This document shows positions 13,255 through 25,399 of a DNA stretch of 47,587 nucleotides, one piece after another. Source of the DNA: Actinotalea ferrariae (GTDB lineage: Bacteria; Actinomycetota; Actinomycetes; Actinomycetales; Cellulomonadaceae); NCBI RefSeq assembly GCF_019733465.1, contig NZ_JACVQL010000021.1:1-47587 (forward strand). Reading direction: 5' to 3'. How positions within the stretch are numbered: the stretch's first letter is position 1; the number at the start of each line of letters is the position of its first letter. The position numbers were made by a program, and so were the translations under genes. The notes under the pieces were generated by a model, which did no database searches, was not told the DNA's origin, and saw only the letters and a program-made list of their open reading frames with translations.

Positions 13255-13282
13255 GAGCGCACTAGCATCCACGGGTCCCGCT
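13211..13282 (-). tRNA. tRNA-Met(CAT): intact 3' part, degenerate 5' half (element attachment site)
   Basis: On the minus strand, 13254 to 13211 reads as the 3' part of a tRNA-Met: anticodon loop CTCATAA, 3' anticodon stem CCCAG, variable loop AGGTC, T-arm GCAGG-TTCAAAT-CCTGC, acceptor strand CCCCGCT and discriminator A; CCA is not encoded. The CCC in the anticodon stem resembles initiator tRNA. Upstream, the sequence loses the expected GGG of the stem, T8, A14 and GG of the D-loop; only a rough AGCGGGA acceptor match remains at 13276-13282. It is therefore probably a displaced 3' fragment at the left junction of an integrated element, not a working tRNA. The restored gene should lie at the far end. 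Confidence 0.6.
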
Positions 13283-13310: not shown

Positions 13311-13408
13311 GGTCAGGGCCGCTTTCGCGTTCGCTTCGGTATGCCGACGTCCGCCGGTGACCGTGCACGTTCGCGTACATGCTGCGTACACAGAGGCGGG
13401 GAGAGCCG

Positions 13409-14524
13409 ATGGGCTGGGTGGCGATGCGTCCGGCGTCCGACGGTCGTCCGCGGTACATGGCGATGTACCGGGATCTGCACGGGCGTACTCGCTCCGCTGG
13501 GACGTTCGCCAGGGAGCGCGATGCCCTGCGTGCGGCGCAGCGGCAGGATGACCAGCTTGCCGAAGGCAAGTGGCTGGATCCGGTCGCGGGCAAGGTGACG
13601 TTCGGCGAGTACGCCGTGGAGATCTGGCTTCCGTCCAGGCATCTGGAGGTCAGCACCCGTGCCGGCTACTCCTCCTACCTGCGCAATCACTTCGTGCCGT
13701 TCTTCGGTGCAATGACGCTGGCGCGCATCATGCCCTCGACCGTCCAGGACTGGGTGACTCGAGCCGTCGACCAGGGCTTGTCGCCTCGCTCGATCGCCAA
13801 GTACCACGTGATGCTGCATTCGGTCTTCGCGCGTGCGGTCCGTGACCGGCTCATCGCCTTCAACCCCTGTGAGGACACCGAGCTGCCGAAGGTCGTGACG
13901 AAGAAGGCAAGGACGCTGACGCCCGAGGAGTTCGCCGGCGTGCTCGCCGAGATCCCCGACCGCTTCAAGCCGCTCGTCATGACGGCGATCGAGACCGGCC
14001 TGCGGTGGGGCGAGCTTGTCGCGCTCCGGCCGCGGCACGTCGACTTCCTCCGCCGCACGATCACCGTCGAGGAGACGATCGTCGAGGTGTCGCGGAAGGA
14101 CTCACCGACGGGCGAACGGATGATCGTCAAGCCCTACCCGAAGGACGACGAGCCCCGGACGCTCCGCGTCTCTCGGGCACTCCTCGACGTCCTGGCTGCC
14201 CGGATCGCCGAACTGGGCCTAGCGAGGGACGACCTGCTGTTCCCGTCGCGCGAGATGGCCGGTGGCCAACCTCTTTCGCGCGCCACGTTCAACACGCGCC
14301 ACTGGAGACCGGCCATCCAGCGCTCGGGTGTCGAGTTCGACCTGCGCATGCACGACCTTCGCCATGCGCACGCCTCGTGGCTCCTGGCCGGGGGGGCCGA
14401 TCTCAAGACGGTCATGGAGCGCATGGGGCACTCCCAGATCATGACGACGCAGCGGTACCTGCACACGCTTCCCGAGGCGCAGGACGAGGCGCTAGCCGCC
14501 TTCGAGAGGATCCGGAAGCGGTAG
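13409..14524 (+). CDS. int: Tyrosine recombinase/integrase
   Basis: Site-specific recombinase, 371 aa; the ATG at 13409 has GGGGAG 5 nt upstream. An N-terminal arm-binding region (residues 1-50) is followed by the SAM-like core-binding domain (TFGEYAVEIWLPSRHLEVST) and the catalytic domain. Catalytic residues are visible: Arg in ETGLRWGELVAL, HxxR in MHDLRHAHASWL, His in MGHSQ and the nucleophile Tyr in TTQRYLHT. The family includes many actinophage and ICE integrases that use tRNA genes. It reads away from the tRNA fragment 150 bp to its left. No excisionase gene was recognised beside it. Confidence 0.93.
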   Translation: MGWVAMRPASDGRPRYMAMYRDLHGRTRSAGTFARERDALRAAQRQDDQLAEGKWLDPVAGKVTFGEYAVEIWLPSRHLEVSTRAGYSSYLRNHFVPFFGAMTLARIMPSTVQDWVTRAVDQGLSPRSIAKYHVMLHSVFARAVRDRLIAFNPCEDTELPKVVTKKARTLTPEEFAGVLAEIPDRFKPLVMTAIETGLRWGELVALRPRHVDFLRRTITVEETIVEVSRKDSPTGERMIVKPYPKDDEPRTLRVSRALLDVLAARIAELGLARDDLLFPSREMAGGQPLSRATFNTRHWRPAIQRSGVEFDLRMHDLRHAHASWLLAGGADLKTVMERMGHSQIMTTQRYLHTLPEAQDEALAAFERIRKR

Positions 14525-14578: not shown

Positions 14579-14595
14579 CTTCACGGATCCTTCAT
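14579..14595 (+). promoter_or_regulatory. Two-component response-regulator box (CTTCAC-N5-CTTCAT)
   Basis: Direct half-sites 11 bp apart, 87 bp upstream of the SHOCT gene start. A one-mismatch version of the box found at four other places in the element. An OmpR-type dimer binding such 11-bp repeats is known; binding here is inferred. Confidence 0.5.
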
Positions 14596-14681
14596 CGGAC
14601 CGCGATCGCTGATGGAGGGCGAACGGCCGACCCTGGGCACTCGAGGCCGCGGAGAGCGAGCCCATCGGACGAGGAGAAGCC

Positions 14682-14909
14682 ATGTCATGGTGCCTGAACG
14701 GCGGCGGCTGGCTGATGGTCGGTGCGACGGCCCTGGTGGTGCTCACGGCAGTGTGGGCAGTGACCCGCCTGTTCCCGACGTCAGTCGTTGCTGACCCCGC
14801 CGGCATCCTCGACGCGCGCCTTGCCCGCGGGGAGGTCGACGTGGACACCTACCGTCGACTCCGCGCCGAGCTGGCCGGGACAGCGTCGAGTGTGGAGGCA
14901 CACCGATGA
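14682..14909 (+). CDS. Small membrane protein with C-terminal SHOCT domain
   Basis: 75-aa protein with one membrane span (residues about 10-29, LMVGATALVVLTAVWAV) and a cytosolic SHOCT domain (DPAGILDARLARGEVDVDTYRRLRAEL). SHOCT modules are short oligomerisation domains at the ends of small membrane proteins, common beside copper genes in actinobacteria. A good ribosome site (GAGGAG) precedes the ATG. It is preceded by the response-regulator box at 14579 and converges with the sensor kinase gene. The precise role is unknown. Confidence 0.75.
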   Translation: MSWCLNGGGWLMVGATALVVLTAVWAVTRLFPTSVVADPAGILDARLARGEVDVDTYRRLRAELAGTASSVEAHR

Positions 14910-14967
14910 CGCCGCACAGGAACGCAATGACGGCGGGCCGCTCAGCGGACGCCCGACCGACCCGTGC

Positions 14968-16098
14968 TCAGCTAGCGGTAGCGGGCAGGACCACAGTGAA
15001 GGTCGCACCGTGTCCGAGACCCCTGCTGCCCGCTGCGATCGTGCCGCCGTGCGCCTCGACCAGCGCCTTGCTGATCGCCAGCCCGATCCCTGAACCACCG
15101 TGGGCACGGTCACGCGCCGTGTCGGCGCGGTAGAACCTCTCGAAGATGTGCGGCAGGTGCTCGGCCGCGATGCCTTCCCCCGTGTCGGTGACGGTGACGC
15201 GCACGAAGCACGAGCCCGCGGGCGCCGCGGCGAGGAAGACTTCGCCACCCGCCGGCGTGTGGCGTATGGCGTTGGCGACGAGGTTGTCCAGAACCTGTGC
15301 GAGCCGCGTGCGGTCGACGGAGACCCGCACAGTGGGAGCGCCGGTCGCGACGCGCAGCTCGACGCCCGACGTGGAGGCGCGCTCACGGGCGGCCGATGCC
15401 GCAGCTTGGAGGAGCTCGCCAGCGGCAACGTCCTCGATGTCGAGAGTGAGGTCGCCCGCCTCGGCGTGTGTGACCTCCGCGAGGTCCTGGGCCAGTCGGG
15501 TCAAGCGGTTGGCCTGATCGCGGAGTATCGCGATGGTGGCCGAGTTCAAGGGTTCTACCCCGTCCTCGACCGCCTCGAGGTAGCCGCTGAGGGTCGCGAC
15601 GGGGGTACGTACCTCGTGGGCAACGTCGGCGAGCAACCGCCCGCGCAAGCGGTCGGCCTCCTGGAGGCGGGCAGCCATCGCGTTGAACGACTCGGCGAGT
15701 TCCTCGAACTCGGTCCCCAGCCCGGTGCTGGGCACCCGTGAGTCGTAGCGGCCCGCACCGAGGCGCGTCGCCGCGGAGGACACCGCGGACAGCGACCGTG
15801 CGATCCGTCGGGTCAGGAACACGCTGACAAGTACTGATGCCACCGCAGCCGCCCCCAGGGCAAGCGACAGGGCGACGGTGCTGGCGTCGCGAAAGGCCCG
15901 TTCCGCGTGCAGGACGGCGCTGTCCGTGTCGCCTAGTCCCGCGGCGACCATGTGCTCGTGGAACAAGCCCGGGCCGACCGATGCGGCCACGAGCCACGCC
16001 GTGATCGCAGCGGTGAGCAGCACGATGACGATGGCGGCGAACAGACGGGTCGCCAAGCCCCATCGAACCGTGCCAGGGGCGCCCGTCGCCGTGGTCAC
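14968..16098 (-). CDS. Membrane sensor histidine kinase, probably copper-responsive
   Basis: 376-aa sensor kinase. TM1 (about 18-40) and TM2 (about 75-97) enclose a short extracytoplasmic loop of some 35 residues with FHEHM and other potential metal ligands. A HAMP domain follows, then the H-box (DVAHEVRTPVATLSGY), N-box (LDNLVANAIRHTP) and G-boxes (DTGEGI, GSGIGLAISKALVEAHGG). The GTG start overlaps the stop of the response regulator gene (GTGA), so the pair is translationally coupled. The small His/Met-bearing sensor loop and the surrounding copper genes suggest periplasmic copper sensing (CopS/CusS-like); the signal is inferred. Confidence 0.88.
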   Translation of the reverse strand: MTTATGAPGTVRWGLATRLFAAIVIVLLTAAITAWLVAASVGPGLFHEHMVAAGLGDTDSAVLHAERAFRDASTVALSLALGAAAVASVLVSVFLTRRIARSLSAVSSAATRLGAGRYDSRVPSTGLGTEFEELAESFNAMAARLQEADRLRGRLLADVAHEVRTPVATLSGYLEAVEDGVEPLNSATIAILRDQANRLTRLAQDLAEVTHAEAGDLTLDIEDVAAGELLQAAASAARERASTSGVELRVATGAPTVRVSVDRTRLAQVLDNLVANAIRHTPAGGEVFLAAAPAGSCFVRVTVTDTGEGIAAEHLPHIFERFYRADTARDRAHGGSGIGLAISKALVEAHGGTIAAGSRGLGHGATFTVVLPATAS

Positions 16099-16832
16099 GA
16101 CCCTGTGCCGATCCGATAGCCGACGCCACGGACCGTGCGGACGAACCGCTGGGCCTCTGCGCTGTCACCGAGCTTCTGGCGCACATGGAGCACGTGCACG
16201 TCGACGAGGTGCTCGTCGCCGACCCAGTTCAGGCCCCAGACGGTGTCGATCAGCGCGCGCCGAGAGAAGACGCGCGCCGGCTTTGCTGCGAGTGCTGACA
16301 GGACATCGAACTCGGTGCGCGTCAGCGGGATCGCTTCGCCGTCGAGCCAGACCTCGCGCCCGTCCACGTCGATGCGCAGAGCGCCGACCTCGAACACCGC
16401 AGGCGCCTCGCCGGGGAGCTGGTCCGCGGGAGCCGCTCGGCGAGGGCGACGCAGGAGCACCTGGATACGAGCCATGAGCTCTCGGGGGCTGAACGGCTTC
16501 GTCATGTAGTCGTCCGCCCCGACCGACAGACCGATCAGCGTGTCCACTTCCTCAGCCCGCGCGGTCAGCATGATCACGTAGCAGTCGGAGAACGTGCGCA
16601 GCTGACGGCACACCTCGACCCCGTCCAGTCCGGGAAGACCGAGGTCAAGGACGACGACGTCGGGGTCCACCTCGCGCAGCACGGCGACGGCCTGGGCGCC
16701 GTCGTGGGTCACGGTGACCTCGAACCCGTCGCGTTCGAGGTACCCGGCCACCAACCGGGCCAGGGCCCGCTCGTCGTCGACGACGACCGCGCGCCGCGAC
16801 GACGGCAGGGTGGGGTCTGGGGAGCTGGTCAC
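16095..16832 (-). CDS. OmpR-family response regulator (CopR-like)
   Basis: 245-aa DNA-binding response regulator. The receiver domain has the acidic pair (VVVDDERALARLVAGYL), the phospho-acceptor Asp in DVVVLDLGLPGLDG and the conserved Lys in DDYMTKPFSPRELM. The C-terminal winged helix is of OmpR/PhoB type (LTRTEFDVLSALAAKPARVFSRRALID.. to RTVRGVGYRIG). GTG 16832 is the only reasonable start. It is divergent from the thiol-redox operon; the intergenic box at 16871 suggests that it controls both directions. The five boxes in the element share spacing and half-site with the TGAAG-based direct repeat reported for CopR of Corynebacterium glutamicum (recalled from the literature), which supports a copper role. 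Confidence 0.88.
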   Translation of the reverse strand: MTSSPDPTLPSSRRAVVVDDERALARLVAGYLERDGFEVTVTHDGAQAVAVLREVDPDVVVLDLGLPGLDGVEVCRQLRTFSDCYVIMLTARAEEVDTLIGLSVGADDYMTKPFSPRELMARIQVLLRRPRRAAPADQLPGEAPAVFEVGALRIDVDGREVWLDGEAIPLTRTEFDVLSALAAKPARVFSRRALIDTVWGLNWVGDEHLVDVHVLHVRQKLGDSAEAQRFVRTVRGVGYRIGTGS

Positions 16833-16870
16833 GGACCCATTGTGTGCTGGCTCCGAGTACCGGTGGGGAC

Positions 16871-16887
16871 CTTCATCGAACCTTGAT
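16871..16887 (+). promoter_or_regulatory. Response-regulator box in the divergent promoter (CTTCAT-N5-CTTGAT)
   Basis: Lies between the regulator gene (start 16832, minus) and the redox operon (start 16965, plus). The first half-site is perfect and the second has one change. It is suited to autoregulation and to activation of the redox operon. Confidence 0.55.
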
Positions 16888-16964
16888 CCAAGGGCGACCG
16901 GCCCTTCGGTGCTGCGCGTCGACGCTCTACACGTCCGAACCCGCGCAAGCCTGCAGGAGAACCC

Positions 16965-17258
16965 GTGTCCCCCTCCGATCCCGTCGACCCGCCGGTCGTC
17001 ACCGTCGTCCACGCCCCGGCGTGCCACTTCTGCCACGACGCCGAGGAGGCACTGGCTGCCCTGACGCAGGAGTACTCGCTGGTGATCCGCCGTGTCGGTA
17101 TCGAGACGATGGAGGGCAGGGCGCTCGTGGCCGAGCACGGCCCGCCGATGAATCCGCTGGTGCTGGTGGACGGTCAGTTCTTCTCCGCTGGGCGGCTGCC
17201 GCGCAAGAAGCTGGCCAAGGTCCTGCAGGGCCGGCACGCCGTCGCGGTCGGCGCCTGA
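16965..17258 (+). CDS. Glutaredoxin/thioredoxin-like protein with CHFC motif
   Basis: 97-aa cytosolic redox protein. The thioredoxin-fold first strand (VVTVVHAPACHFCHDAEEAL) carries the redox pair Cys-His-Phe-Cys; the cis-Pro region appears as MNPLVLVDGQFFSAG and the C-terminus ends RKKLAKVL, as in glutaredoxin-like DUF836/NrdH-size proteins. The GTG start has AGGAG 6 nt upstream. It is first in an operon with a CcdA-like membrane protein (1 bp gap), a redoxin and a Cys-rich peptide. It probably passes electrons to the membrane carrier; the partner is inferred from position. Confidence 0.8.
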   Translation: MSPSDPVDPPVVTVVHAPACHFCHDAEEALAALTQEYSLVIRRVGIETMEGRALVAEHGPPMNPLVLVDGQFFSAGRLPRKKLAKVLQGRHAVAVGA

Positions 17259-17259
17259 G

Positions 17260-18249
17260 ATGGGCAGCGAGCTGCTGACGACCGGCAGCATCCTGGCGGC
17301 GTTCTTCGCCGGCGGGGTGGCCCTGTTCGCCCCGTGCTGCATCGTGTTCCTCGCGCCGTCCTACTTGGCCGGTGCGGTCAAGAACGCCCGCTGGCGACTG
17401 CTGCCGCTGACGTTCGTCTTCGCCGCGGGCCTGGCGGTGGTGCTGGTGCCGATCACGCTGGGGATGAGCTTGCTCGCCGGCGCTATCGCCCGATACCACG
17501 CGCCGCTGTACTGGGCCGGCGGGCTGCTGATGATCGCGCTCGCAGCACTGGCCCTGTCGGGTCGGATGTGGTCGCTGCCGTCGTTCCTGCGCGCCCCGGA
17601 CACCACCCGTGGTGACACGGCGAGCTTCTTCTCCCTCGGTGTGTTCTCCGGCATCGCGTCGTCGTGCTGTGCACCGGTCCTGGCCGGGGTGATGACCCTG
17701 TCGGTCCTCTCAGGATCGCCGATCGGGGGCCTGGCCCTGGGTCTGGCGTACGTCTTCGGGATGGTCTTCCCGCTGTTCGTCATGGCTCTCGTCTGGGACA
17801 AGGCCCGGCTGGGCGAACGCAAGCTCCTCCAGGCCAAGACCGTCCGGCTGCACCTGGCGGGCCGCACCCTGGTCACCAACACCCTGAACATCGCGGTCGC
17901 GGTCGGTTTCGCCGTGATGGGCGTGTTCGTCATCGCCCTTGCCGGCAGCGAGGACATGACGGGCGGGTCGGCGTTCCAGGATGCCACCAGCCGCACGCTG
18001 ACCGACGTGTTCGGCGCCGTCCAGGAGTTCCTGTCTCCGGTGCCCGAGCCCCTCCAGGCGTTGGCGCTGCTCGCGGTCGCCGCCGGCTTCATCTGGGTGA
18101 CCCTCGCCGACCGCCGCCGCTCAGCGCGCCCGTTGAGCACCGCACCGGCCTCCTCCATCGAGGACTGCGCCGCCGCGGCCGGCGACGACGATGCCGCGCC
18201 CGTCCCGTCCTGCCACGCCGCCCCGACCTCGGAAGAAGTGACCCGATGA
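17260..18249 (+). CDS. CcdA/DsbD-like thiol transporter with paired cysteines
   Basis: 329-aa membrane protein with about six to seven spans in the CcdA (DsbD-beta) arrangement. Instead of the usual single cysteines, both key helices carry Cys-Cys: GGVALFAPCCIVFLAPSYL and IASSCCAPVLAGVM. The cytosolic C-terminal tail (about 290-329) has further Cys/His (IEDCAAAAG, SCHAA). CcdA proteins carry reducing power from cytosolic thioredoxin to extracytoplasmic partners; here the candidates are the CHFC protein upstream and the redoxin downstream (ATGA overlap). The doubled cysteines could also bind soft metals. It differs clearly from the classical CcdA at 45641. Confidence 0.82.
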   Translation: MGSELLTTGSILAAFFAGGVALFAPCCIVFLAPSYLAGAVKNARWRLLPLTFVFAAGLAVVLVPITLGMSLLAGAIARYHAPLYWAGGLLMIALAALALSGRMWSLPSFLRAPDTTRGDTASFFSLGVFSGIASSCCAPVLAGVMTLSVLSGSPIGGLALGLAYVFGMVFPLFVMALVWDKARLGERKLLQAKTVRLHLAGRTLVTNTLNIAVAVGFAVMGVFVIALAGSEDMTGGSAFQDATSRTLTDVFGAVQEFLSPVPEPLQALALLAVAAGFIWVTLADRRRSARPLSTAPASSIEDCAAAAGDDDAAPVPSCHAAPTSEEVTR

Positions 18250-18872
18250 CCTCCGGAACCGCTACCCGCCGCCTCGCCGAACGTCAGCAGGCTCTGCTGG
18301 AGGTCCAGGCCGCACAGGCAGAACAGACCCGGCGCCGCCAGCGCATCAGCCGGGGCGCCTGGGGCATCGGCCTGCTGATCGTCGCCGCCGCGGTCGCGTT
18401 CGGGTTGGCCACCTCGCGACCGACCACGTCCAGCGACGTGCGGGCCGCGCCGGACTTCACGCTCCCCGCCTCGGACGGCTCGACCGTGTCCTTGACCGAC
18501 TACCGCGGTGAGCCGGTCGTCCTGTACTTCAATGAGGGCGCCGGGTGCGACAGCTGCCTGCTGCAGATGGCCGAGATCGAGAAGGACCCCGCGTTCGCCG
18601 AGGCCGGCATCGCCGTGCTACCGATCGTGATGAACACCTCTGAGCAGATCAACGCGGACCGCGAACGCCTCGGGGTCCAGGCGCCGTTCCTGCTCGACGA
18701 CGGGACCGTGTCCGCCGCCTACGACACCCTCGGCAAGGGCATGCACGAAGGCCTCCCAGGCCACGGGTTCGTCCTGATCGACGCCGACGGGAACCAGTTG
18801 TGGCACGGCAACTACCCGTCCATGTGGCTCGCCCCGTCCGACCTGCTCAAGGAGGTCTCGAGCCGACTCTGA
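18246..18872 (+). CDS. Membrane-anchored redoxin (AhpC/TSA-TlpA-like)
   Basis: 208-aa protein with a cytosolic N-terminus (about 1-35), one membrane anchor (AWGIGLLIVAAAVAFGLA) and an outward-facing thioredoxin fold (APDFTLPASDGSTVSLTDYRGEPVVLYF). The active site is GAGCDSCLLQM (CxxC). Its start overlaps the CcdA-like gene (ATGA). It would receive electrons from that transporter and reduce disulfides, peroxides or metal-bound thiols outside the membrane. The substrate cannot be told from sequence. The anchor marks it as an extracytoplasmic enzyme, unlike cytosolic peroxiredoxins. Confidence 0.85.
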   Translation: MTSGTATRRLAERQQALLEVQAAQAEQTRRRQRISRGAWGIGLLIVAAAVAFGLATSRPTTSSDVRAAPDFTLPASDGSTVSLTDYRGEPVVLYFNEGAGCDSCLLQMAEIEKDPAFAEAGIAVLPIVMNTSEQINADRERLGVQAPFLLDDGTVSAAYDTLGKGMHEGLPGHGFVLIDADGNQLWHGNYPSMWLAPSDLLKEVSSRL

Positions 18873-18923
18873 CCACCACCTCTTCAGATCCGAGCACGTC
18901 ACGACATCACGAAGGAGGGCCCG

Positions 18924-19055
18924 ATGGGCTGCTGCCAGGACACCACCACGGCGATCACCACGACCGAGAGCACCGAGACGACGGCCGGCGACGGCTGCTG
19001 CGGCGGCGGCGCTCAGGGCACGGACACCTGCTGCGCGACCAGCACCCCTGCCTGA
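18924..19055 (+). CDS. 43-aa peptide with three Cys-Cys pairs, candidate metal-binding peptide
   Basis: Short gene with a very strong ribosome site (AAGGAGGGCCCG before ATG). The product starts MGCCQDTTT and has Cys pairs at residues 3-4, 25-26 (GDGCCGGG) and 36-37 (DTCCATS), separated by Thr/Glu- and Gly-rich stretches; there is no membrane segment or signal. Six cysteines in 43 residues within a copper operon suggest a metallothionein-like chelator, comparable in size to mycobacterial MymT but with no clear sequence likeness. It lies between the redoxin and a DUF305 lipoprotein, probably on one transcript. It is too short for most gene finders. Confidence 0.65.
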   Translation: MGCCQDTTTAITTTESTETTAGDGCCGGGAQGTDTCCATSTPA

Positions 19056-19090
19056 CCGACCCGAACACCGATCCTGGGAAGGAACCAACC

Positions 19091-19717
19091 TTGACAACCA
19101 CGACACGCCGGCGCCTCGCCGCAACGACCGCAGTGCTGGCTTTGGCAGCCACTTTGACGGCCTGCTCCAACGCCGATGAGCCAGCGAGCGAATCTCCCGC
19201 TGCACAGGAGTCCGCGAGCAGCGAGGAAACCGGGGAGGCGACCGAGCACAACGCTGCGGATGTGGAGTTCGCCCAGATGATGATCGTCCACCACCAGGGG
19301 GCGCTCGAGATGGCCGAACTGGCGGTCGAGCGGGCATCAGCCGACGAGGTGCGCACGCTGGCCGAGCGGATCGCTGCAGCGCAGGGCCCGGAGATCGAGC
19401 TCATGTCCAGCTGGCTGGTGACCTGGGACGAGGAGCTGGCCGCCGACGCCGAGCACGGCGGCATGGACCACGGTGGGATGGACATGGACGGCATGGACCA
19501 GGGGGAGGCCATGGCTGCCCTCTCCGAGCTCGAAGGGGTCGAGTTCGACCGCAAGTTCCTCGAGCTCATGGTGGCCCACCACCGCGGCGCCACCGAGATG
19601 GCTCAGACCCAGCTCGCCGAGGGCGCAGATCCGGACGCTCTGGCACTCGCCCGGTCGATCAGGGACGACCAGAACGCGGAGATCACTGAGATGGAGAACC
19701 TGCTCCGCAACCTGTGA
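19091..19717 (+). CDS. DUF305 lipoprotein, probable extracytoplasmic copper-binding protein
   Basis: 208-aa lipoprotein (lipobox LTACSN) whose mature part carries the DUF305 four-helix bundle in two halves, each with a His-rich metal site: FAQMMIVHHQGALEMAELA and FLELMVAHHRGATEMAQTQ. Between them lies a Met/His-rich loop (GGMDHGGMDMDGMDQ) typical of copper handling. The TTG start has AAGGAA 8 nt upstream and gives the signal sequence at once. It is last in the redox operon; a strong terminator follows. DUF305 proteins such as CopM bind Cu outside the membrane. Confidence 0.85.
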   Translation: MTTTTRRRLAATTAVLALAATLTACSNADEPASESPAAQESASSEETGEATEHNAADVEFAQMMIVHHQGALEMAELAVERASADEVRTLAERIAAAQGPEIELMSSWLVTWDEELAADAEHGGMDHGGMDMDGMDQGEAMAALSELEGVEFDRKFLELMVAHHRGATEMAQTQLAEGADPDALALARSIRDDQNAEITEMENLLRNL

Positions 19718-19734
19718 AGAGCCCGCGTCGACCG

Positions 19735-19771
19735 CAGGAGGCCGCCCGACCACGAGAGGGGCGGCCTCCTG
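19735..19771 (+). terminator. Terminator of the redox/DUF305 operon
   Basis: 13-bp GC-rich inverted repeat (19735-19747 and 19759-19771) 18 bp after the DUF305 stop codon. Confidence 0.75.
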
Positions 19772-19831
19772 CCGTACGCGTCGGACGCCGGCGATGCAGC
19801 GACGGAGTCGGCTCGGACGTATCGTCGCCCC

Positions 19832-20224
19832 GTGTCCAGCCCGCGCCCGATCGGTAACGACCTCCCCGGGCTCACCGCGTGCAGCCTGTGCGCTGGGGAA
19901 ACGCTGGGCGAGCGCGACACCGAGGCGGGTGGCCAGCTGCAGCGGCTGGAGCGCCTCGACGACTCCGGCGTCGCGCGCTTGACGACGGTGGAGTGCCTCG
20001 ACGAGTGCGAGCGCGGCGACGTCGTGGTCGCTCGTCCGACCGGTGCCAACCGCCGTGCCGGCGCACGACCGGTGTGGTTCGAGCGCCTCGCCGGGGACGA
20101 GGCGACCGACGAACTCGCGGACTGGCTGCGCTCCGGCGGCCCGGGCGCCACGGAGCTGCCCGACGGGCTCGCCGACAACGTCATCAAGCGTTCCGGCACG
20201 GCGTCCGAGGGCCCTGCGGCGTAG
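19832..20224 (+). CDS. Thioredoxin-like [2Fe-2S] ferredoxin-type protein
   Basis: 130-aa cytosolic protein with four cysteines placed like thioredoxin-fold [2Fe-2S] ferredoxins: LTACSLCAGETLG near residue 20 and VECLDECERGDVVVARP near residue 58. The GTG start lies 6 nt after a TATCGT -10-like box and lacks a ribosome site, so it is probably a leaderless mRNA. It stands alone between two terminator or regulatory regions. It could carry electrons, or the cysteines could bind metal directly; the partner is not visible. Confidence 0.7.
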   Translation: MSSPRPIGNDLPGLTACSLCAGETLGERDTEAGGQLQRLERLDDSGVARLTTVECLDECERGDVVVARPTGANRRAGARPVWFERLAGDEATDELADWLRSGGPGATELPDGLADNVIKRSGTASEGPAA

Positions 20225-20296
20225 CCGTCAGCACCAAGGGGCCAGGTCCGGCCGTGTCCGCCCTGCGCACGACTCGTCGTCCGGAGCCGTGCGCAC

Positions 20297-20313
20297 CTTC
20301 ATCGAACCTTCAT
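20297..20313 (+). promoter_or_regulatory. Response-regulator box upstream of the copper storage protein (CTTCAT-N5-CTTCAT)
   Basis: Perfect copy, CTTCATCGAACCTTCAT, 112 bp before the GTG start at 20425 and oriented toward it. Identical over all 17 bases to the box at 24140. Confidence 0.65.
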
Positions 20314-20424
20314 GGCCATTCGTGCCCGCTCACCGTGCGAACACCCAGGCCTCTCCTTAGCGTCGAAGTGGTCCCGCGGCGCGCGCGATCACGCGCCCGG
20401 TCCTTGCAACCGAGGAGGAACGAC

Positions 20425-20826
20425 GTGAAGACCACGGAGATGCTCGAGACCTACCCCGCCACGATCAACCTCGACCGACAGCTGCTCGCCCGCGTCATCG
20501 AGACCCTCGTCGCCTGCTCACAGGCGTGCACCGCGTGCGCCGACGCGTGCCTGAGCGAGGAGATGGTCGCGGACCTGCGCAAGTGCATCCGGTCCAACCT
20601 CGACTGCGCCGACAGCTGCACGGCTACGGCGCGGATCCTGTCCCGCCACACCGGCTACGACGCCAACATCACGCGGGCGCACCTCGAGGCCTGCATCGCC
20701 GCGTGCCGGGCCTGCGGTGACGAGTGCGAGCAGCACGCGAGCATGCACGAGCACTGCCGTGTCTGCGCCGAGGCGTGCCGCGACTGCGAGGCCGCCTGCG
20801 GCGAGCTGCTCGCGGCCATCGGCTGA
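20425..20826 (+). CDS. Csp-type four-helix-bundle copper storage protein
   Basis: 133-aa protein of the DUF326/Csp family: a four-helix bundle lined with cysteines that stores Cu(I). About 16-17 Cys occur, mostly as CxxxC and CxxC repeats along helices (LVACSQACTACADACLS, CIRSNLDCADSC, LEACIAACRACGDEC, HCRVCAEACRDCEAAC). There is no signal peptide, so it resembles cytosolic Csp3. The GTG start has GAGGAGG 7 nt upstream. The perfect response-regulator box in its 200-bp upstream region suggests copper induction; the membrane DUF305 gene follows after 96 bp. Confidence 0.9.
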   Translation: MKTTEMLETYPATINLDRQLLARVIETLVACSQACTACADACLSEEMVADLRKCIRSNLDCADSCTATARILSRHTGYDANITRAHLEACIAACRACGDECEQHASMHEHCRVCAEACRDCEAACGELLAAIG

Positions 20827-20922
20827 GCGCGCCCACGCGGTCCCGGTGGGCAGCCCGCCCGCAGCACCGCGTGAGCCGTCCGGCACCCCAGCAGGCACGG
20901 AGCAAGACGAGGAGACGCAGCG

Positions 20923-21564
20923 ATGTCCATGCAGCGCGAGCACGACCACGAGCCGAAGAGGGAGCACGACGGCGGTGACGACACCGGCTACGGCGGCGAG
21001 CACCATGGCGGTCAGCAGGGCCATCAGATGAAGGGCATGTACCTGCGGTTCGCCGCCATGATCCTCACGGCCATGGTGGTCATGTACTTCGTGATGTTCG
21101 TCGGCTCCTGGGAGCTCGACCACGTCCGGTTCAGCCAGAGCCGCGTCTTCATGGCGGTCACCATGGGCGGCACCATGGGGCTGATCATGCTCGCCTGGAT
21201 GCTGAACATGTACAAGAACGCCAGGGCGAACATCGCCGTCGTCGCCGTCAGCCTGCTGCTCCTCGCCGGGGGCGTCGTGCTCGACCGCAGTCAGGCCACG
21301 GTCGGCGACACCGCATTCATGCGCGCGATGATCCCCCACCACTCCCTGGCGATCACACGCTCCGAGCAGGCGCAGATCGACGACGTCCGGGTGTGCGAGC
21401 TCGCCGTCGAGATCATCAAGGCCCAGCAGCGTGAGATCGCCGAGATGGACTGGCTCATCCAGGACATCGAGCGCAACGGCATCGCCACGTCGGCGGCTGA
21501 TGCCGACGAGCGTGCGGTCCCGGACTTCGAGGGCACCGCGCTGCGCTCGTGCCCGACGTCCTAA
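20923..21564 (+). CDS. DUF305 membrane protein with His-rich N-terminus
   Basis: 213-aa protein. A His/Asp/Gly-rich cytosolic start (HDHEPKREHDGG, GGEHHGGQQGHQMKG) precedes three membrane spans between about residues 40 and 120. A C-terminal DUF305-like half-bundle follows with AFMRAMIPHHSLAITRSEQAQ and EIIKAQQREIAEMDWLI. The ATG is preceded by GAGGAGA. The anchor differs from the lipoprotein DUF305 at 19091 and the single-span one at 44284. It probably holds metal at the membrane face for transport or sequestration; the direction is unknown. Confidence 0.82.
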   Translation: MSMQREHDHEPKREHDGGDDTGYGGEHHGGQQGHQMKGMYLRFAAMILTAMVVMYFVMFVGSWELDHVRFSQSRVFMAVTMGGTMGLIMLAWMLNMYKNARANIAVVAVSLLLLAGGVVLDRSQATVGDTAFMRAMIPHHSLAITRSEQAQIDDVRVCELAVEIIKAQQREIAEMDWLIQDIERNGIATSAADADERAVPDFEGTALRSCPTS

Positions 21565-21634
21565 CCCAACCCGCCCGGCGTCGAGGCGTTGCACGCGAGG
21601 AATATGCGCCATGGATGGACGGTCCGGCAGTCAG

Positions 21635-21650
21635 ATACCCCCTGGGGTAT
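21635..21650. promoter_or_regulatory. CsoR-type operator 1
   Basis: ATACCCCCTGGGGTAT, a near-perfect palindrome of the ATACCCC-N-GGGGTAT class bound by copper repressors of the CsoR family. It lies upstream of the short leader ORF at 21681. Confidence 0.75.
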
Positions 21651-21680
21651 CACCGGGTGACCGGTCGGAGGAGAAGAGCC

Positions 21681-21791
21681 ATGAGCAACGCGCACCAGGG
21701 CCACCCGGTCCACTACCCGCGACCATCGCCCCTCGAGCCGTACCGGAATACCCCGCCGGGGTATACGCTTGACCGTGGTGATACCCCCTAG
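21681..21791 (+). CDS. 36-aa leader ORF resembling the start of the CopB gene
   Basis: ATG frame with GAGGAGAAG upstream, starting MSNAHQGHPVHY; the downstream ATPase starts MSNAHHGHDAGE, and the bases around both ATGs are nearly the same. The frame runs through CsoR box 2 and stops inside box 3. It may be a relic of a 5' duplication that copied promoter and start, or a working His-containing leader peptide. No homologue was recognised. Confidence 0.4.
   Translation: MSNAHQGHPVHYPRPSPLEPYRNTPPGYTLDRGDTP
21748..21764. promoter_or_regulatory. CsoR-type operator 2
   Basis: ATACCCCGCCGGGGTAT, a perfect palindrome around the central base, 109 bp before the CopB start. Confidence 0.8.
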
Positions 21792-21797
21792 GGGTAC
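21781..21797. promoter_or_regulatory. CsoR-type operator 3
   Basis: ATACCCCCTAGGGGTAC, a CsoR-like palindrome 60 bp before the CopB start. A TTGACC at 21769-21774 could be the -35 element partly covered by boxes 2 and 3. No csoR gene is present in the window, so the repressor must be encoded elsewhere. Confidence 0.75.
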
Positions 21798-21856
21798 GCA
21801 GGACCACGGGGGCTCGCCAAGGGCGCACCTCCCCCGACGGCCGAGGAGAGACGATC

Positions 21857-24124
21857 ATGAGCAACGCGCACCACGGTCACGACGCCGGTGAGGACGTGCG
21901 GCCGACGACGGATCGCTCGCTCGGTCACGGGACCGGCCACGACGAGGCCGCACCCGCGCATGACCGACACGGTGGGCACGACGCCGACCAGATGGCCCAC
22001 GAGGGGCACCGTCCCGGTGGGCACCACGCCGCCCACGGCACCACCCCGGAAGGTGACCACGGTGCGCACGGGGGGCACGACGGCCACGGGGGCCACGGGG
22101 GCCACGGCGACCATGTCGCCATGTTCCGTCGCATGTTCTGGATCACGCTGTTCCTGGCGGTACCGACCGTCTTGCTCAGCGGGATGTTCGCCGACCTGCT
22201 CGGCTACTCGCTGCCTGACCTCCCCGGCCTCGCATGGGTCGCCCCGATCCTCGGCACGGTCATCTATCTCTGGGGCGGGCGCCCGTTCCTCACCGGAGCG
22301 GTCGCCGAGGTCCGCGGCCGCAAGCCGGGGATGATGCTTCTGATCGGGATGGCGATCACCGTCGCATTCGTCGCCTCCTGGGGCGCCACGCTGGGTCTGC
22401 TGTCGCATGAGCTCGACTTCTGGTGGGAGCTGGCGCTCCTGGTCGCCATCATGCTGCTCGGCCACTGGCTCGAGATGCGCTCCCTGGCGCAGACGTCCTC
22501 CGCGTTGGACTCGCTCGCCGCGTTGCTTCCGGACGAGGCCGAGAAGGTCGACGGCGACACGGTCGTCGTCGTCCCGCCGTCCGCGCTCGGTCTGGGTGAC
22601 GTGGTGATCGTGCGCCCGGGGGGCCGGGTCCCGGCCGACGGCGAGGTCGTCGACGGCGCCGCCGACGTCGACGAGTCGATGATCACCGGTGAGTCACGAC
22701 CGGTCCCGCGCACGGTCGGCGACCGCGTCGTCGCCGGAACCGTGTCGACCGACAGCGCACTACGCGTGAGGGTTGACGCCATCGGCGACTCCACCGTGCT
22801 GGCCGGCATCCAGCGCCTGGTCGCCGAGGCGCAGTCGTCCACCACACGCGCGCAGCTTCTCGCCGACCGCGCCGCCGGCTGGCTCTTCTGGTTCGCCGTC
22901 GTCGCGGCCGTCATCACCGTGACCGCCTGGAGCGTCATCGGCACGCCCGACTTCGCCATCGTCCGCGCCATCACCGTCCTGGTCATCGCCTGCCCCCACG
23001 CCCTCGGGCTCGCGATCCCGCTCGTGGTCTCGATCTCGACCGAACGGGCCGCCCGCGCGGGCGTCCTGGTCAAGGACCGGGCCGCGCTGGAAAGGATGCG
23101 CGTCGTCGACACGGTCCTGTTCGACAAGACCGGCACGCTCACCAAGGGCGAACCAGCCCTGCACGACGTCGCCACCACCGGGCTCCCCGAGGACGAGCTC
23201 CTGACCCTCGCCGCCGCCGCCGAGGCGGACAGCGAGCACCCCCTGGCGCGCGCCATCACCGCCGCCGCGGAACGCCGCGGGCTGAGCGTGCCGCGCGCGC
23301 AGGATTTCCAGGCCTCGACAGCGGTCGGGGTCTCCGCCACCATCGACGGGCGCCGCGTCGCCGTCGGCGGACCGAACCTCCTGGCCGAGCACGGGCTGAC
23401 TCCCCTGCCCGACGCCCAGCCCTGGTCCGATCGCGGCCAGATCGTCCTGCACGTACTGGTCGACGGGCAGGTCGCCGGCGCCTTCGGGCTCGCCGACGAG
23501 GTCCGCCAGAAGTCCCGGGAGGCAGTCGACGCCCTCCACGCACTCGCGATCCACGTCGTGATGATCACCGGCGACGCGGAGCCCGTGGCCAAGGCCGTCG
23601 GTGCAGAGCTCGGCATCGACCAGGTCTTCGCGGGGGTGCGCCCCGAGGACAAGAGCAGCACGGTGGCTTCCCTGCAGGGAGCGGGTCGGACCGTGGCGAT
23701 GGTCGGCGACGGCGTCAACGACGCCCCCGCTCTCGCCCAGGCCGACGTCGGCATCGCCATCGGCGCCGGCACCGACGTGGCGATCGCCTCGGCCGGAGTC
23801 ATCCTCGCCTCCGACGACCCACGATCCGTGCTGTCCGTCATCCGGCTCTCCCGCGAGGGCTACCGCAAGATGAAGCAGAACCTCTGGTGGGCGGCCGGCT
23901 ACAACATCGCCGCCGTCCCCCTCGCGGCCGGCGTCCTGGCACCGATCGGGTTCGTCCTGCCGATGGAGGTCGGCGCGATCCTCATGTCGCTGTCCACGAT
24001 CGTCGTGGCCGCCAATGCCCAGCTCCTGCGCCGCCTCGACCTGACCCCGCAGGGCTCGACCGCCTCGGCGCACAGCGCACCGCGCGTCCAGCCGAGTCCC
24101 CTGATCGGCACGCCGGCCGCCTGA
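21857..24124 (+). CDS. copB: CopB-type (P1B-3) copper-exporting P-type ATPase
   Basis: 755-aa heavy-metal ATPase. The N-terminal 85 residues are a His-rich metal-binding tail (HDRHGGHDADQ, GGHHAAHG, HDGHGGHGGHGGHGD) in place of HMA domains. The transmembrane metal motif is CPHALG, the CopB/P1B-3 signature. TGES (actuator), DKTGTLTKGEP (phosphorylation), SEHPLARAI (nucleotide HP motif) and GDGVNDAPALAQADVGIAIG (hinge) are all intact. The length is normal. It is probably repressed by CsoR through three upstream boxes. It exports copper from the cytosol, feeding the extracytoplasmic DUF305 and CopC proteins encoded nearby. Confidence 0.94.
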   Translation: MSNAHHGHDAGEDVRPTTDRSLGHGTGHDEAAPAHDRHGGHDADQMAHEGHRPGGHHAAHGTTPEGDHGAHGGHDGHGGHGGHGDHVAMFRRMFWITLFLAVPTVLLSGMFADLLGYSLPDLPGLAWVAPILGTVIYLWGGRPFLTGAVAEVRGRKPGMMLLIGMAITVAFVASWGATLGLLSHELDFWWELALLVAIMLLGHWLEMRSLAQTSSALDSLAALLPDEAEKVDGDTVVVVPPSALGLGDVVIVRPGGRVPADGEVVDGAADVDESMITGESRPVPRTVGDRVVAGTVSTDSALRVRVDAIGDSTVLAGIQRLVAEAQSSTTRAQLLADRAAGWLFWFAVVAAVITVTAWSVIGTPDFAIVRAITVLVIACPHALGLAIPLVVSISTERAARAGVLVKDRAALERMRVVDTVLFDKTGTLTKGEPALHDVATTGLPEDELLTLAAAAEADSEHPLARAITAAAERRGLSVPRAQDFQASTAVGVSATIDGRRVAVGGPNLLAEHGLTPLPDAQPWSDRGQIVLHVLVDGQVAGAFGLADEVRQKSREAVDALHALAIHVVMITGDAEPVAKAVGAELGIDQVFAGVRPEDKSSTVASLQGAGRTVAMVGDGVNDAPALAQADVGIAIGAGTDVAIASAGVILASDDPRSVLSVIRLSREGYRKMKQNLWWAAGYNIAAVPLAAGVLAPIGFVLPMEVGAILMSLSTIVVAANAQLLRRLDLTPQGSTASAHSAPRVQPSPLIGTPAA

Positions 24125-24139
24125 CCCACGTGTGCCCAT

Positions 24140-24156
24140 CTTCATCGAACCTTCAT
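24140..24156 (+). promoter_or_regulatory. Response-regulator box upstream of a 26-aa ORF (CTTCAT-N5-CTTCAT)
   Basis: Identical over 17 bases to the box at 20297 and also followed by GGCC. It is 39 bp before the ATG at 24195, just after copB. If the second half-site overlaps a -35 region, transcription would start close to the small ORF. Confidence 0.6.
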
Positions 24157-24194
24157 GGCCGAAAGGCCGTAGGTCGGCACGATCGAGGTACGCC

Positions 24195-24275
24195 ATGGCG
24201 ACCTTGGAGGGCAGCGTGCCCTTCAGCACGACCGAGGGCAGCCCGACGTGCCTGACAACCCTCAAGCTGACCTAG
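24195..24275 (+). CDS. Possible 26-aa protein directly behind a regulator box
   Basis: ATG frame preceded by CGAGG at a good distance, reading MATLEGSVPFSTTEGSPTCL at its start, with one Cys and many Thr/Ser. No homology was recognised. A perfect response-regulator box ends 38 bp upstream and no other plus-strand gene follows, so the box either serves this ORF, a small RNA, or nothing. Confidence 0.4.
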   Translation: MATLEGSVPFSTTEGSPTCLTTLKLT

Positions 24276-24336
24276 CATGGCCCGTCTTGGCGGCGTGACT
24301 CGCCGGCCCATCGACGCGGCGCTCGGGTGTGTTCCG

Positions 24337-25113
24337 TCAGCCGACGCGGATGAACGTGGGGTTCGACTGCCAGATCTCACGAATCTGGATGGTCTTGCCG
24401 GGAACCGGGGCGTCGATCTGCGTGTTGCCCCCCGCATAAATCGAGATGTGCCCCGGGGTCCAGATGAGGTCTCCGGGCTGCGCCTGCTCGAAGGGCACCA
24501 CCGTGCCCGCGTCTCGCTGAGCGCCTGACGTACGCGGCAGCGCGATGCCCACCTGCGCGTACACGTACGAGGTGAAGCCTGAGCAGTCGAAGCCGTCCGG
24601 CGTCGTGCCTCCCCAGAGGTAAGGCACCCCGACGTAGCGCGAAGCGATCTCGACGATCGCGTTGCCGTTCGCGCTTGCGGGCGCCGGTGCTCCGATCTCG
24701 GCAGGAGCCGACTCGGCCGCGGCTTCCCGGACCTGGCTCCGAGAAGGCGCAGCCTCTACCGGCGCAGGCGGTGGAGGCGGGGGCGGGTCGGCGACGACCG
24801 TGATTGCCGGGACGTCGAAGGTCCATGCGGCGTCGCTGGGAACCGAGACGACCGGGGACGTATCCAGCACGGTACGAGCGGAGGCAGTGAGAGCCCGGGT
24901 GTCGACGGTCGGCAGCTGGCCCTCGTTGTGGCTGTGCGCTGCCGACGCCGGACTCGCCAGCATCGAGACGACCAGACCGGACGACGCGGCCATGACCGCC
25001 CCGCGACGACCGCTCAGTGCTACGTGGGCGACGGCCGTCGACGCGGCGATCGACAGCGGGGTGGTCGCCGACCCCGCGGCGCGGTGGCGTGCGGCCTCAG
25101 ATCGTGCAGGCAT
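24337..25113 (-). CDS. Secreted NlpC/P60 peptidoglycan hydrolase under riboswitch control
   Basis: 258-aa exported cell-wall endopeptidase. The ATG at 25113 has GGAGAGG 6 nt upstream. An N-terminal signal/anchor region (about residues 30-52, AAGSATTPLSIAASTAVAHV to ASPASAAHS) is followed by a Pro-rich linker and a C-terminal NlpC/P60 (C40) domain (IVEIASRYVGVPYLWGG) with the nucleophile in DGFDCSGFTSYVY and the His in TPGHISIYAGG. Its long 5' leader contains a c-di-AMP riboswitch (25130-25304), usual for actinobacterial rpf and NlpC/P60 genes, and further upstream a response-regulator box points toward it. It probably remodels the wall during metal or envelope stress. Confidence 0.9.
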   Translation of the reverse strand: MPARSEAARHRAAGSATTPLSIAASTAVAHVALSGRRGAVMAASSGLVVSMLASPASAAHSHNEGQLPTVDTRALTASARTVLDTSPVVSVPSDAAWTFDVPAITVVADPPPPPPPAPVEAAPSRSQVREAAAESAPAEIGAPAPASANGNAIVEIASRYVGVPYLWGGTTPDGFDCSGFTSYVYAQVGIALPRTSGAQRDAGTVVPFEQAQPGDLIWTPGHISIYAGGNTQIDAPVPGKTIQIREIWQSNPTFIRVG

Positions 25114-25129
25114 GGACAGCCTCTCCGAT

Positions 25130-25304
25130 CGCCTGTGAAGTGAGCTGTCGGGTTCGGGCTGGAGCAGCCCGGTCGGCCGTAGTGCACCGACTTCACCCCA
25201 AGGGCACCGCAAAGGTGCCCGTACACGTGGGTCCCCCACTCCTGCCATGTGAATCGGGGAGCGCGCCCTCGACGGTGGCAGGACTCGGCGTCCGCCTTGA
25301 GCGG
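25130..25304 (-). promoter_or_regulatory. ydaO/yuaA-type c-di-AMP riboswitch
   Basis: The minus-strand leader shows the conserved blocks of the ydaO class in order: CCGAGTCCTGCC, then GGCAGGAGTGGGGGACCCA, then CTTGGGGTGAAG, CCGACCGGG and finally GACAGCTCACTTCACAGGCG, 17 nt before the start codon of an NlpC/P60 gene, its classic partner. High c-di-AMP usually lowers expression. A covariance-model search was not possible here, but block order and spacing are convincing. Confidence 0.88.
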
Positions 25305-25382
25305 CGCCGAACGAGCGTCCGGCGCTCGCCGATAATAGGGGGCTCCACCGAGGCATGTCACGAATCGATCACGACGCAGGCC

Positions 25383-25399
25383 ATGAAGTTTCGATGAAG
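25383..25399 (-). promoter_or_regulatory. Response-regulator box upstream of the riboswitch (CTTCAT-N5-CTTCAT, minus strand)
   Basis: On the minus strand it reads CTTCATCGAAACTTCATGG, one base different from the boxes at 20297 and 24140, pointing toward the riboswitch and NlpC/P60 gene. It lies about 80 bp upstream of the riboswitch, a promoter-like distance. The 390-bp gap 25114-25504 is thus explained by this box, the riboswitch and the hydrolase promoter. Confidence 0.6.

Follow-up and report, generated by a model that had tools for sequence, protein, structure and literature searches.

In the accessible parts of the published work, CopRS of Corynebacterium glutamicum is described as having one operator, TGAAGATTTgaTGAAGATTT, which serves two divergent units (PMC3140484, PMC3353115), and deletion of copRS caused sensitivity to copper but not to seven other metals (PMC3353115). 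In Corynebacterium crenatum, cueP and copS are controlled by CopR, and copA is affected by CsoR (PMC11124244). Streptomyces CutRS has the site TAWATAAA and is linked to secretion stress (PMC12802291).

Here we describe a copper-resistance island of Actinotalea ferrariae on mobile DNA that seems to hold a control circuit of an already known type, to which some target genes are new. The window, meaning the whole stretch of DNA analyzed, comprises 47,587 bases (GCF_019733465.1, NZ_JACVQL010000021.1, positions 1–47,587, forward strand). It contains direct-repeat boxes that are predicted operators of the adjacent CopR-type regulator, and we consider it highly probable that they make up a multi-operator CopRS-type copper regulon. 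The circuit looks real because many related bacteria also have this box next to a sensor of this kind.

Regulator, sensor kinase, and boxes in the window

An OmpR-family regulator with receiver and winged helix (16098–16832, minus strand; 245 aa, GTG start; Pfam Response_reg and Trans_reg_C) is paired with a HAMP-HisKA-HATPase_c kinase (14971–16098, minus strand; Pfam). The regulator was classed as CopR-type from a tree and the kinase as CopS-type from a loop alignment. The tree held 113 of the 126 rows collected, after removal of fragments, duplicate entries, and most of the nearly identical regulators from Corynebacterium. As to a tentative grouping with Corynebacterium CopR apart from MtrA and other OmpR-type regulators, the regulator was nested in an 82-row clade (SH-aLRT 82; inner forks 80–88, by a quick method), and the long Corynebacterium stem in the same tree may be misplaced. 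Its identity with Corynebacterium-type CopR was only 52%, and it scored 154.1 bits with the NCBIfam heavy-metal CztR/SilR/CopR model TIGR01387, below the cut-off of 279.2. A plasmid search gave 27 records with the regulator, 24 of which were from Rhodococcus.

The kinase has a short loop, GPGLFHEHM...HAERAF, flanked by two membrane helices apparent by eye. In the loop alignment, its GPGLFHEHM corresponded to GPTLFHDHM, in some cases GPTLFQDHM, of Corynebacterium-type kinases. Both parts of the pattern [GA]PxxFxxH[LMV]...HxExA[FY], which was derived in the present analysis, were present in 86 of the 101 distinct loops, with the first His of the motif kept in only 62.

When CTTCATNNNNNCTTCAT was searched on both strands of the window with up to two mismatches, exactly five matches were obtained, and these are all the CTTCAT-N5-CTTCAT boxes that the sequence-only reading had located. 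Box 1 (14579–14595, CTTCACGGATCCTTCAT) and box 2 (16871–16887, CTTCATCGAACCTTGAT, second half-site CTTGA) have one mismatch each, and box 3 (20297–20313, CTTCATCGAACCTTCAT) and box 4 (24140–24156) have none; all four are on the plus strand. Box 5 (25383–25399, CTTCATCGAAACTTCAT) matches perfectly on the minus strand. The 17-bp identity claimed for boxes 3 and 4 was confirmed. In 100 dinucleotide shuffles, the mean number of matches was 0.51 and the maximum 3, so none reached five.

In the 4.26-Mb genome (426 contigs), eight matches with at most one mismatch were found, five in the window and three on contig C80, while the reversed pattern gave none on either strand. The earlier refutation test, in which the motif would occur at random frequency, was thus run genome-wide with mismatch counts instead of a matrix, and the motif was non-random. 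All eight places fall on the two contigs bearing the two closest regulators, C80 being the home of the closest paralogue (76% identity). Allowing two mismatches gave 39 matches, whereas the reversed control gave 15. Exactly two mismatches were present in 31 of the 39; of these, C80:17187 (CTTCATCGAACCTTGAC) is the counterpart of the window box at 16871 and raises the count on C80 to four, and the rest lack such a link and were treated as background. The regulon had been placed inside the element, and this holds for the five window boxes but leaves out the three on C80 beside the paralogous regulator.

The window boxes agree with the published CopR site in its core (direct repeat, 11-bp period, CTTCA), and the likeness to the C. 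glutamicum box proved real against the accessible description of that site (PMC3140484, PMC3353115). The window boxes do not have the complete 9-bp repeat TGAAGATTT in both halves of the site. Because the ATTT extension is missing from them, we claim a CopR-type system and not an identical operator. Within one genus of 242 genomes, TGAAGATTTgaTGAAGATTT occurred with at most one mismatch in 83, and its reversed control in none. Two of these loci were read completely, and there the site is next to genes for the regulator, kinase, CopZ, CopB, DUF305, CueP, and CopO. A literature search for the box motif in several exact spellings gave no match.

We aligned 64 boxes having at least 20 bases before the box and at least 100 bases from the box start to the end of the locus. 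Distant genera keep the box while the flanks differ. A third half-site, CTTSAT, was found at +33 in 12 of the 64, and some loci of Rhodococcus, Millisia, and Dietzia have a tandem array of three half-sites. As a sign of a fixed sigma70 −10, exact TANNNT reached five of the 64 boxes at no offset, and only weak columns (A at offsets 50–51, T at 54–55) were seen downstream; for these reasons, no promoter model is claimed.

Recurrence of the box and the regulator in other genomes

Among related loci, the box was present in 25 of 49 with a regulator identity of at least 56% and in none of 30 below 56%, and the reversed control gave none in these 79 loci (Fisher P = 5e-7, relatedness ignored). The other 24 close-regulator loci lack a box at one mismatch; nine of these had a two-mismatch box no farther than 150 bp from where the regulator starts, and 15 had none there at two mismatches. 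A survey of 394 Actinomycetes genomes gave 143 exact box places, of which 26 were no more than 10 kb from a regulator orthologue (20 of 137 when the window's own genome was excluded), against an expectation of about 0.13 from a rough uniform model. The pattern by itself lacks specificity, because the other 117 exact places were away from the regulator and the reversed pattern occurred at about 66 places by hand count.

At the order level, a spacer-constrained box was found in 12 of 297 genomes, with no match for the reversed control. All 11 box-bearing genomes besides the window's own encode the regulator, the baseline being 12 of 38 same-order genomes at a stricter E-value. In three of the 11 (G754, G877, and G892), every box was more than 10 kb from any regulator. 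Four regulator-bearing genomes of Rhodococcus, Gordonia, Dietzia, and Nocardia showed a weak excess of the one-mismatch pattern (17 versus 8 reversed). The counts in the related loci, the 26 places near the regulator, and the 11 genomes bear out the earlier proposal that the boxes belong to the neighboring OmpR-type regulator.

Genes downstream of the boxes

For 61 of 81 distinct boxes, the next 450 bp downstream include the start of a copper-cluster gene that is read in the direction of the box (short loci L098–L126 left out of this count), whereas 10.3% of random positions have such a gene on the same criterion. With the strand flipped, a copper-cluster gene was still found for 47 of 82 boxes, which makes orientation a weak argument; at 60–160 bp, the counts were 40 versus 20 flipped.

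Box 1 stands 86 bp upstream of a 75-aa ORF (14682–14906, plus strand), which had been called a SHOCT protein. Such targets recur in other genera, with a box 74–180 bp upstream of this kind of gene in 14 loci including the window, so the gene kind is upheld as a target; the family name is kept only as SHOCT-like since neither Pfam (E 0.001) nor NCBIfam (E 0.01) gave a match. A tyrosine recombinase (integrase) gene (13379–14521, plus strand; Pfam Phage_integrase) adjoins the cluster.

Box 2 is in the gap separating the divergent regulator and redox operon, a kind of place that recurs in other loci. The operon begins with a glutaredoxin-like protein (16965–17255, plus strand; Pfam Glrx-like, 24.6 bits, below the cut-off of 26), which is a same-strand box target in six loci including the window. 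It is followed on the same strand by a membrane protein named CcdA/DsbD-like by resemblance (17260–18246; no Pfam family, NCBIfam DsbD-fusion weak and below cut-off) and a TlpA/AhpC-TSA-type thioredoxin-like protein (18246–18869; Pfam AhpC-TSA). The recurrence of the Grx-CcdA-TlpA target in other genera corroborates the box assigned to this operon. In the same direction lie a cysteine-rich 43-aa peptide (18924–19052, plus strand; no Pfam), for which, among the matches listed in the loci searched, only L017 had a convincing homologue, and a DUF305 protein (19091–19714, plus strand; Pfam DUF305). The latter has no box directly upstream, although 13 further loci have a DUF305 homologue as a box target.

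The Csp-type copper storage gene (20425–20823, plus strand; Pfam DUF326, NCBIfam Csp1 family below cut-off) lies downstream of box 3, as had been read, at a distance of 111 bp, and a single close relative, L017, also has Csp as a box target. Downstream of Csp is a second DUF305 protein with a membrane stretch (20923–21561, plus strand; Pfam DUF305). The next gene encodes a copper-type P1B ATPase with a His-rich N-terminus (21857–24121, plus strand; Pfam E1-E2_ATPase, NCBIfam ATPase-IB1_Cu above cut-off). Two palindromes upstream of it (21749–21763 and 21782–21796) are CsoR-like and may be CsoR sites; the ATPase is probably under CsoR instead of the CopR-type regulator. No match to CopO or CopZ was found in the window.

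Box 4 precedes a 26-aa ORF (24195–24272, plus strand) that had been listed as a target gene. This assignment was given up, and the ORF is instead read as a remnant of a lost cueP: 21 residues align with positions 118–138 of the 138-position Pfam CueP model PF21172 (E 0.0012), with 52–57% identity over 21 aa to the end of Corynebacterium-type CueP. Because the score is 19 bits against a cut-off of 27 and only the end of the model is aligned, we call it the C-terminal tail of this copper-binding protein and not a CueP protein. Its relatives among the matches listed were in Corynebacterium-type loci only. No further CueP match was found in the window, and no RNA family reached the Rfam gathering score at the ORF.

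Box 5 lies upstream of an NlpC/P60 hydrolase gene (24340–25113, minus strand; Pfam NLPC_P60), a candidate target whose leader contains a c-di-AMP riboswitch (RF00379; 25116–25269, minus strand; 65.1 bits, Rfam cut-off 38) 114 bp downstream of the box. The box is exact and correctly oriented as had been read, but the reading frame starts 267 bp from it. A promoter-like sequence, TGACAT-N17-TATTAT, follows 22 bp downstream of the box, and the NlpC paralogue on C80 has it as TGACAT-N17-TAGGAT (both by eye). The best box in 900 bp scanned at this paralogue (L010, 8901–9800) had four mismatches, and a box near NlpC in L021 has the opposite orientation. The window is alone in supporting an NlpC box. 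Of the earlier regulon reaching from thiol redox to cell wall, the redox arm recurs, whereas the wall arm comes down to one window box.

Proposed circuit, alternatives, and comparison with known systems

In the proposed circuit, the membrane kinase would sense extracytoplasmic copper via its short loop with conserved His residues and phosphorylate the CopR-type regulator. The regulator would bind as a head-to-tail dimer on a pair of CTTCA(T) half-sites spaced by 11 bp, and would activate promoters of genes mostly starting some 70–180 bp downstream. The units predicted to be controlled are the divergent promoter of the regulator itself with the Grx-CcdA-TlpA relay for thiols, the SHOCT-like protein, the Csp copper store, and the promoter formerly serving cueP; the riboswitch-controlled NlpC/P60 wall hydrolase may be a further one. 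We infer binding, phosphorylation, copper as the signal, and activation rather than repression from sequence. Copper is the best-supported signal on the grounds that the sensor loop is common to Corynebacterium-type kinases and that copper genes lie under the boxes.

The boxes might be the regulator's operators under a signal other than copper (a different metal, or stress on thiols or the envelope), or some other regulator of the cell might read them; we regard this as improbable. The regulator is of a general OmpR type with a sub-threshold TIGR01387 score, and the redox relay and NlpC hydrolase could serve envelope stress. This alternative is opposed by the loop shared with Corynebacterium-type CopS, by targets including Csp, CueP, CopO, and copper ATPases, by the presence of the regulator in all 11 box genomes, and by the copper-specific sensitivity of the C. 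glutamicum copRS deletion mutant (PMC3353115). That the boxes are chance occurrences or a shared mobile or coding repeat rather than regulatory sites can be practically dismissed. Three of them do belong to a 29-bp repeat family, but distant genera keep the box in differing flanks, and chance occurrence was ruled out by the shuffles, the genome count, the related loci, and the order-level reversed controls.

The operator reading is less secure for boxes 4 and 5, and there is a considerable chance, somewhat short of even, that both are relics, box 4 serving only the lost-cueP tail and box 5 being accidental or decaying. The 26-aa ORF matches only the last part of CueP, and neither the four-mismatch box on C80 nor the turned one in L021 sustains box 5. 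Against decay, box 4 copies box 3 perfectly, with 93% agreement over the surrounding 29 bp, and box 5 is a perfect, correctly oriented match followed by the promoter-like sequence that has a similar form at the C80 paralogue. We tentatively suggest, as one joint and rather doubtful proposal, that actinobacterial CopR regulons use half-site arrays on one 11-bp grid, in which half-site number may grade promoter strength, and that NlpC/P60 is a two-input gate, at which the CopR-type box would turn on transcription by copper and the c-di-AMP riboswitch would decide message completion. Such a gate would make wall remodeling under copper stress conditional on envelope state.

Operators of this kind are present in several families of actinobacteria, and this one genome has two copies of an entire regulon that is accompanied by its own regulator and adjoins an integrase gene. 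New putative targets before CopR-type boxes are the Csp copper store, the thiol relay across the membrane, DUF305 and SHOCT-like proteins, and perhaps the wall hydrolase controlled by c-di-AMP; in the accessible portions of the literature, no tie to CopR was found for any of them. The box motif may offer a ready means to assign copper roles to uncharacterized genes.

PmrA/PhoB-type tandem operators have head-to-tail half-sites 11 bp apart; the window boxes have the same spacing, whereas the half-site and signal differ. The name CutRS carries a link to copper. Streptomyces CutRS is an actinobacterial two-component system as in the window, and the boxes were ruled out as CutR sites because the published TAWATAAA differs from them (PMC12802291). 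The CopR/CsoR split of C. crenatum resembles the one proposed here, with CopR-type boxes on one side and CsoR-like palindromes before the ATPase on the other; the C. crenatum evidence in the accessible text is expression data with no mapped operator, and ours is sequence (PMC11124244). With C. glutamicum CopRS, the window shares an OmpR-type regulator and kinase, a short outer loop (about 30 aa in CopS), an operator between divergent regulator and effector operons, a direct-repeat operator with an 11-bp period and CTTCA core, and a CopB-type ATPase, TlpA-type protein, and CueP (tail only in the window). It differs in having five boxes plus those on C80, against a single operator in the genome according to the accessible text, and in predicted targets beyond that system, namely Csp, the SHOCT-like protein, glutaredoxin/CcdA, and perhaps NlpC (PMC3140484, PMC3353115).

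Boxes in the window and on a second copper cluster

All five CTTCAT-N5-CTTCAT direct repeats (half-sites 11 bp apart) proposed in the sequence-only reading were present in the window, at 14579 (+), 16871 (+), 20297 (+), 24140 (+), and 25383 (−) (boxes 1–5), with 0.51 expected by chance. The motif also held up in a random-frequency test over the genome (4.26 Mb, 426 contigs). At one mismatch or fewer, the pattern occurred at only eight places, namely, five in the window and three on another contig, C80 [12210 (−), 19909 (−), and 23044 (+)], and the reversed pattern used as a control occurred at none. At exactly two mismatches, 31 further places were found, compared with 15 for the reversed control at two mismatches or fewer. 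Among these two-mismatch sites, C80 17187 clearly corresponds to window 16871. The window boxes are very probably the operators of the adjacent CopR-type response regulator (OmpR family; 16098–16832, −), which is encoded with a CopS-type histidine kinase (14971–16098, −), and together constitute a multi-operator copper regulon.

C80 (loci L009 and L010) carries a second copper cluster with a paralogous regulator–kinase pair. Its regulator is the nearest paralogue of the window regulator in this genome (76% identity), and the remaining paralogues show 50% identity or less. Named by resemblance, the neighbors on C80 are the kinase, two copper-type ATPases, DUF305, NlpC/P60, CopZ-like, CDF-like, DUF6803, relaxase-like, and integrase-like proteins.

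Occurrence of the box with the regulator in other genomes

Using both regulators as queries, we fetched 79 loci from the best 80 of 228. A box with one mismatch or fewer was found in 25 of the 49 loci whose regulator showed at least 56% identity and in none of the 30 loci below 56%, and the reversed pattern was absent from all 79. Of the 24 close-regulator loci lacking a one-mismatch box, nine (8 of 20 and 1 of 4) carried one with two mismatches no more than 150 bp from where the regulator gene starts. Some loci of Rhodococcus, Millisia, and Dietzia have three tandem half-sites in 11-bp steps. In four genomes of Rhodococcus, Gordonia, Dietzia, and Nocardia, the one-mismatch pattern was hardly enriched (17 versus 8 reversed), in line with drift of the operator there.

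Exact CTTCAT-N5-CTTSAT occurred at 143 places in 105 of 394 Actinomycetes genomes. Regulator orthologues (E-value of 1e-68 or lower; 83 regulators) are encoded by 61 of the 394 genomes. Twenty-six of the 143 places (15 genomes) had one of these regulators within 10 kb, or 20 of 137 when the window's own genome is left out, against about 0.13 expected under a rough uniform model. The bare pattern is unspecific, because 117 of the 143 places were away from any regulator and the reversed pattern occurred at about 66 places (hand count). It becomes specific when the conserved spacer letters are added: CTTCATNRNANCTTSAT was found at 20 places in 12 of the 297 genomes of the order, and its reversed control in none of the 297. 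Leaving out the window's own genome, the regulator is encoded by 11 of 11 genomes with this box, compared with 12 of 38 same-order genomes in the 394-genome survey; three of the 11 (G754, G877, and G892) had no box within 10 kb of a regulator.

Genes under the boxes

Taking as the target the first gene to start on the same strand, up to 450 bp from the box, 61 of 81 distinct boxes from 65 loci had a copper-cluster gene, and no target gene was assigned to the other 20. The larger classes were SHOCT-like (15, at 74–180 bp), DUF305 (13), CopO (7), Grx (6), CopB-type (5), and regulator (5) genes, and the smaller ones were CueP (3), Csp (2), CopA (2), NlpC (1, window only), A24 peptidase (1, C80), and propeller-like (1) genes. 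Random positions in the same loci gave 10.3%, against 61 of 82 boxes (one duplicate kept). With the strand flipped, a copper-cluster gene was still found for 47 of 82, because copper clusters are dense and often divergent.

In the window, the predicted targets of boxes 1 (SHOCT-like ORF) and 2 (Grx-CcdA-TlpA) find support in other genera, where a box likewise precedes the same gene, and the predicted target of box 3 (Csp) in one close relative, L017 of an uncultured Cellulomonas. A divergent Csp adjoins a box in L049. Box 4 had been assigned to a 26-aa ORF, and the box stands. The alignment of this ORF to the CueP family covers the family's final 21 positions (19 bits, below the cut-off of 27), and the ORF also aligns with the C terminus of the CueP adjoining the CopR operator in Corynebacterium-type genomes. 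In locus L044, a box lies 96 bp ahead of the projected start of a CueP match. We read box 4 as a putative old cueP promoter. The leader of NlpC/P60 contains a c-di-AMP riboswitch (RF00379; 25116–25269, −; 65.1 bits), with box 5 a further 114 bp upstream. The same riboswitch occurs at L010 9010–9176, before the C80 NlpC paralogue, where it is retained and an equivalent of box 5 is absent, and at L021 8581–8729, where a box is oriented the opposite way.

Other features were observed in the window. A 43-aa Cys-rich peptide (18924–19052, +) with three CC pairs follows the redox genes; it has a clear homologue only in L017 among the loci searched and possibly binds metal. A 130-aa protein (19832–20221, +) with CxxC and CxxxC motifs had no match in Pfam or NCBIfam and is 57–69% conserved in copper loci L009, L015, L016, L019, and L021. 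A weak tRNA match (13211–13282, −; 29.3 bits, cut-off 29), at which ARAGORN found no tRNA, adjoins an integrase gene (13379–14521, +) and is a possible attachment-site remnant. A 25-bp unit is present in three perfect tandem copies at 28188–28263.

Comparison with known CopRS systems

The proposed likeness to the CopR box of C. glutamicum was borne out. According to the available part of PMC3140484, the operator is TGAAGATTTgaTGAAGATTT, and three-base-pair changes inside it abolish binding; its opposite strand, AAATCTTCATCAAATCTTCA, reads CTTCAT-CAAAT-CTTCA. Boxes of the form CTTCATCAAATCTTCAT are close to regulator orthologues in genomes of f11, a family also containing a Corynebacterium-type genus. 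The genus to which G380 belongs, which we infer to be Corynebacterium-type, has the published operator at one mismatch or fewer in 83 of 242 genomes, and the reversed control in none. In two loci of this genus seen in full, the operator precedes regulator, kinase, CopZ, CopB, and DUF305 genes, with CueP and CopO on the other side, as reported for C. glutamicum. Corynebacterium-type regulators show 52% identity with the window regulator. A quick tree placed them, at modest support and on a long stem, within the window regulator's 82-row clade. A short loop is common to the window kinase (GPGLFHEHM...HAERAF) and Corynebacterium-type kinases [GPTLF(H/Q)DHM...HAEQAY]. Both parts of a looser loop pattern were found in 86 of 101 distinct loops, the 15 exceptions being six from Chloroflexota/Armatimonadota, two of other kinase types, and seven from the group's own actinobacterial loci. 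Of the 101 loops, 62 retain the first His. In the accessible portion of a review (PMC3353115), the CopS loop is about 30 residues long, and a CopRS deletion mutant was sensitive to copper only among the metals tried.

Most likely, copper outside the cytoplasm would be sensed via the kinase loop, followed by phosphotransfer to the regulator, a dimer of which would occupy two half-sites 11 bp apart and bring about activation. A third half-site (CTTSAT, one mismatch or fewer) at +33 was found for 12 of 64 boxes, in several genera, with 0–3 at other offsets of 17–91; this suggests room for a second dimer, the 64 boxes not being independent. None of the window's boxes has it at one mismatch or fewer, the best having two (16871).

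Two TACCCC-N4-GGGTA palindromes (21749–21763 and 21782–21796), a form typical of CsoR operators, precede the window copper ATPase gene. A further 14-bp CsoR-like palindrome, spotted by eye, is also upstream of it (21636–21649). The gene start MSNAHxGH is duplicated at 21680–21704 and 21856–21880, 176 bp apart, and the first copy starts a 36-aa ORF overlapping the palindrome region. A CopR/CsoR split appears in the expression of C. crenatum in the available text of PMC11124244.

This kind of system is already known. Relative to published open-licence papers, in the parts available, the new elements are several operators per genome, not one, and Csp, Grx-CcdA, SHOCT-like, and perhaps NlpC as targets.
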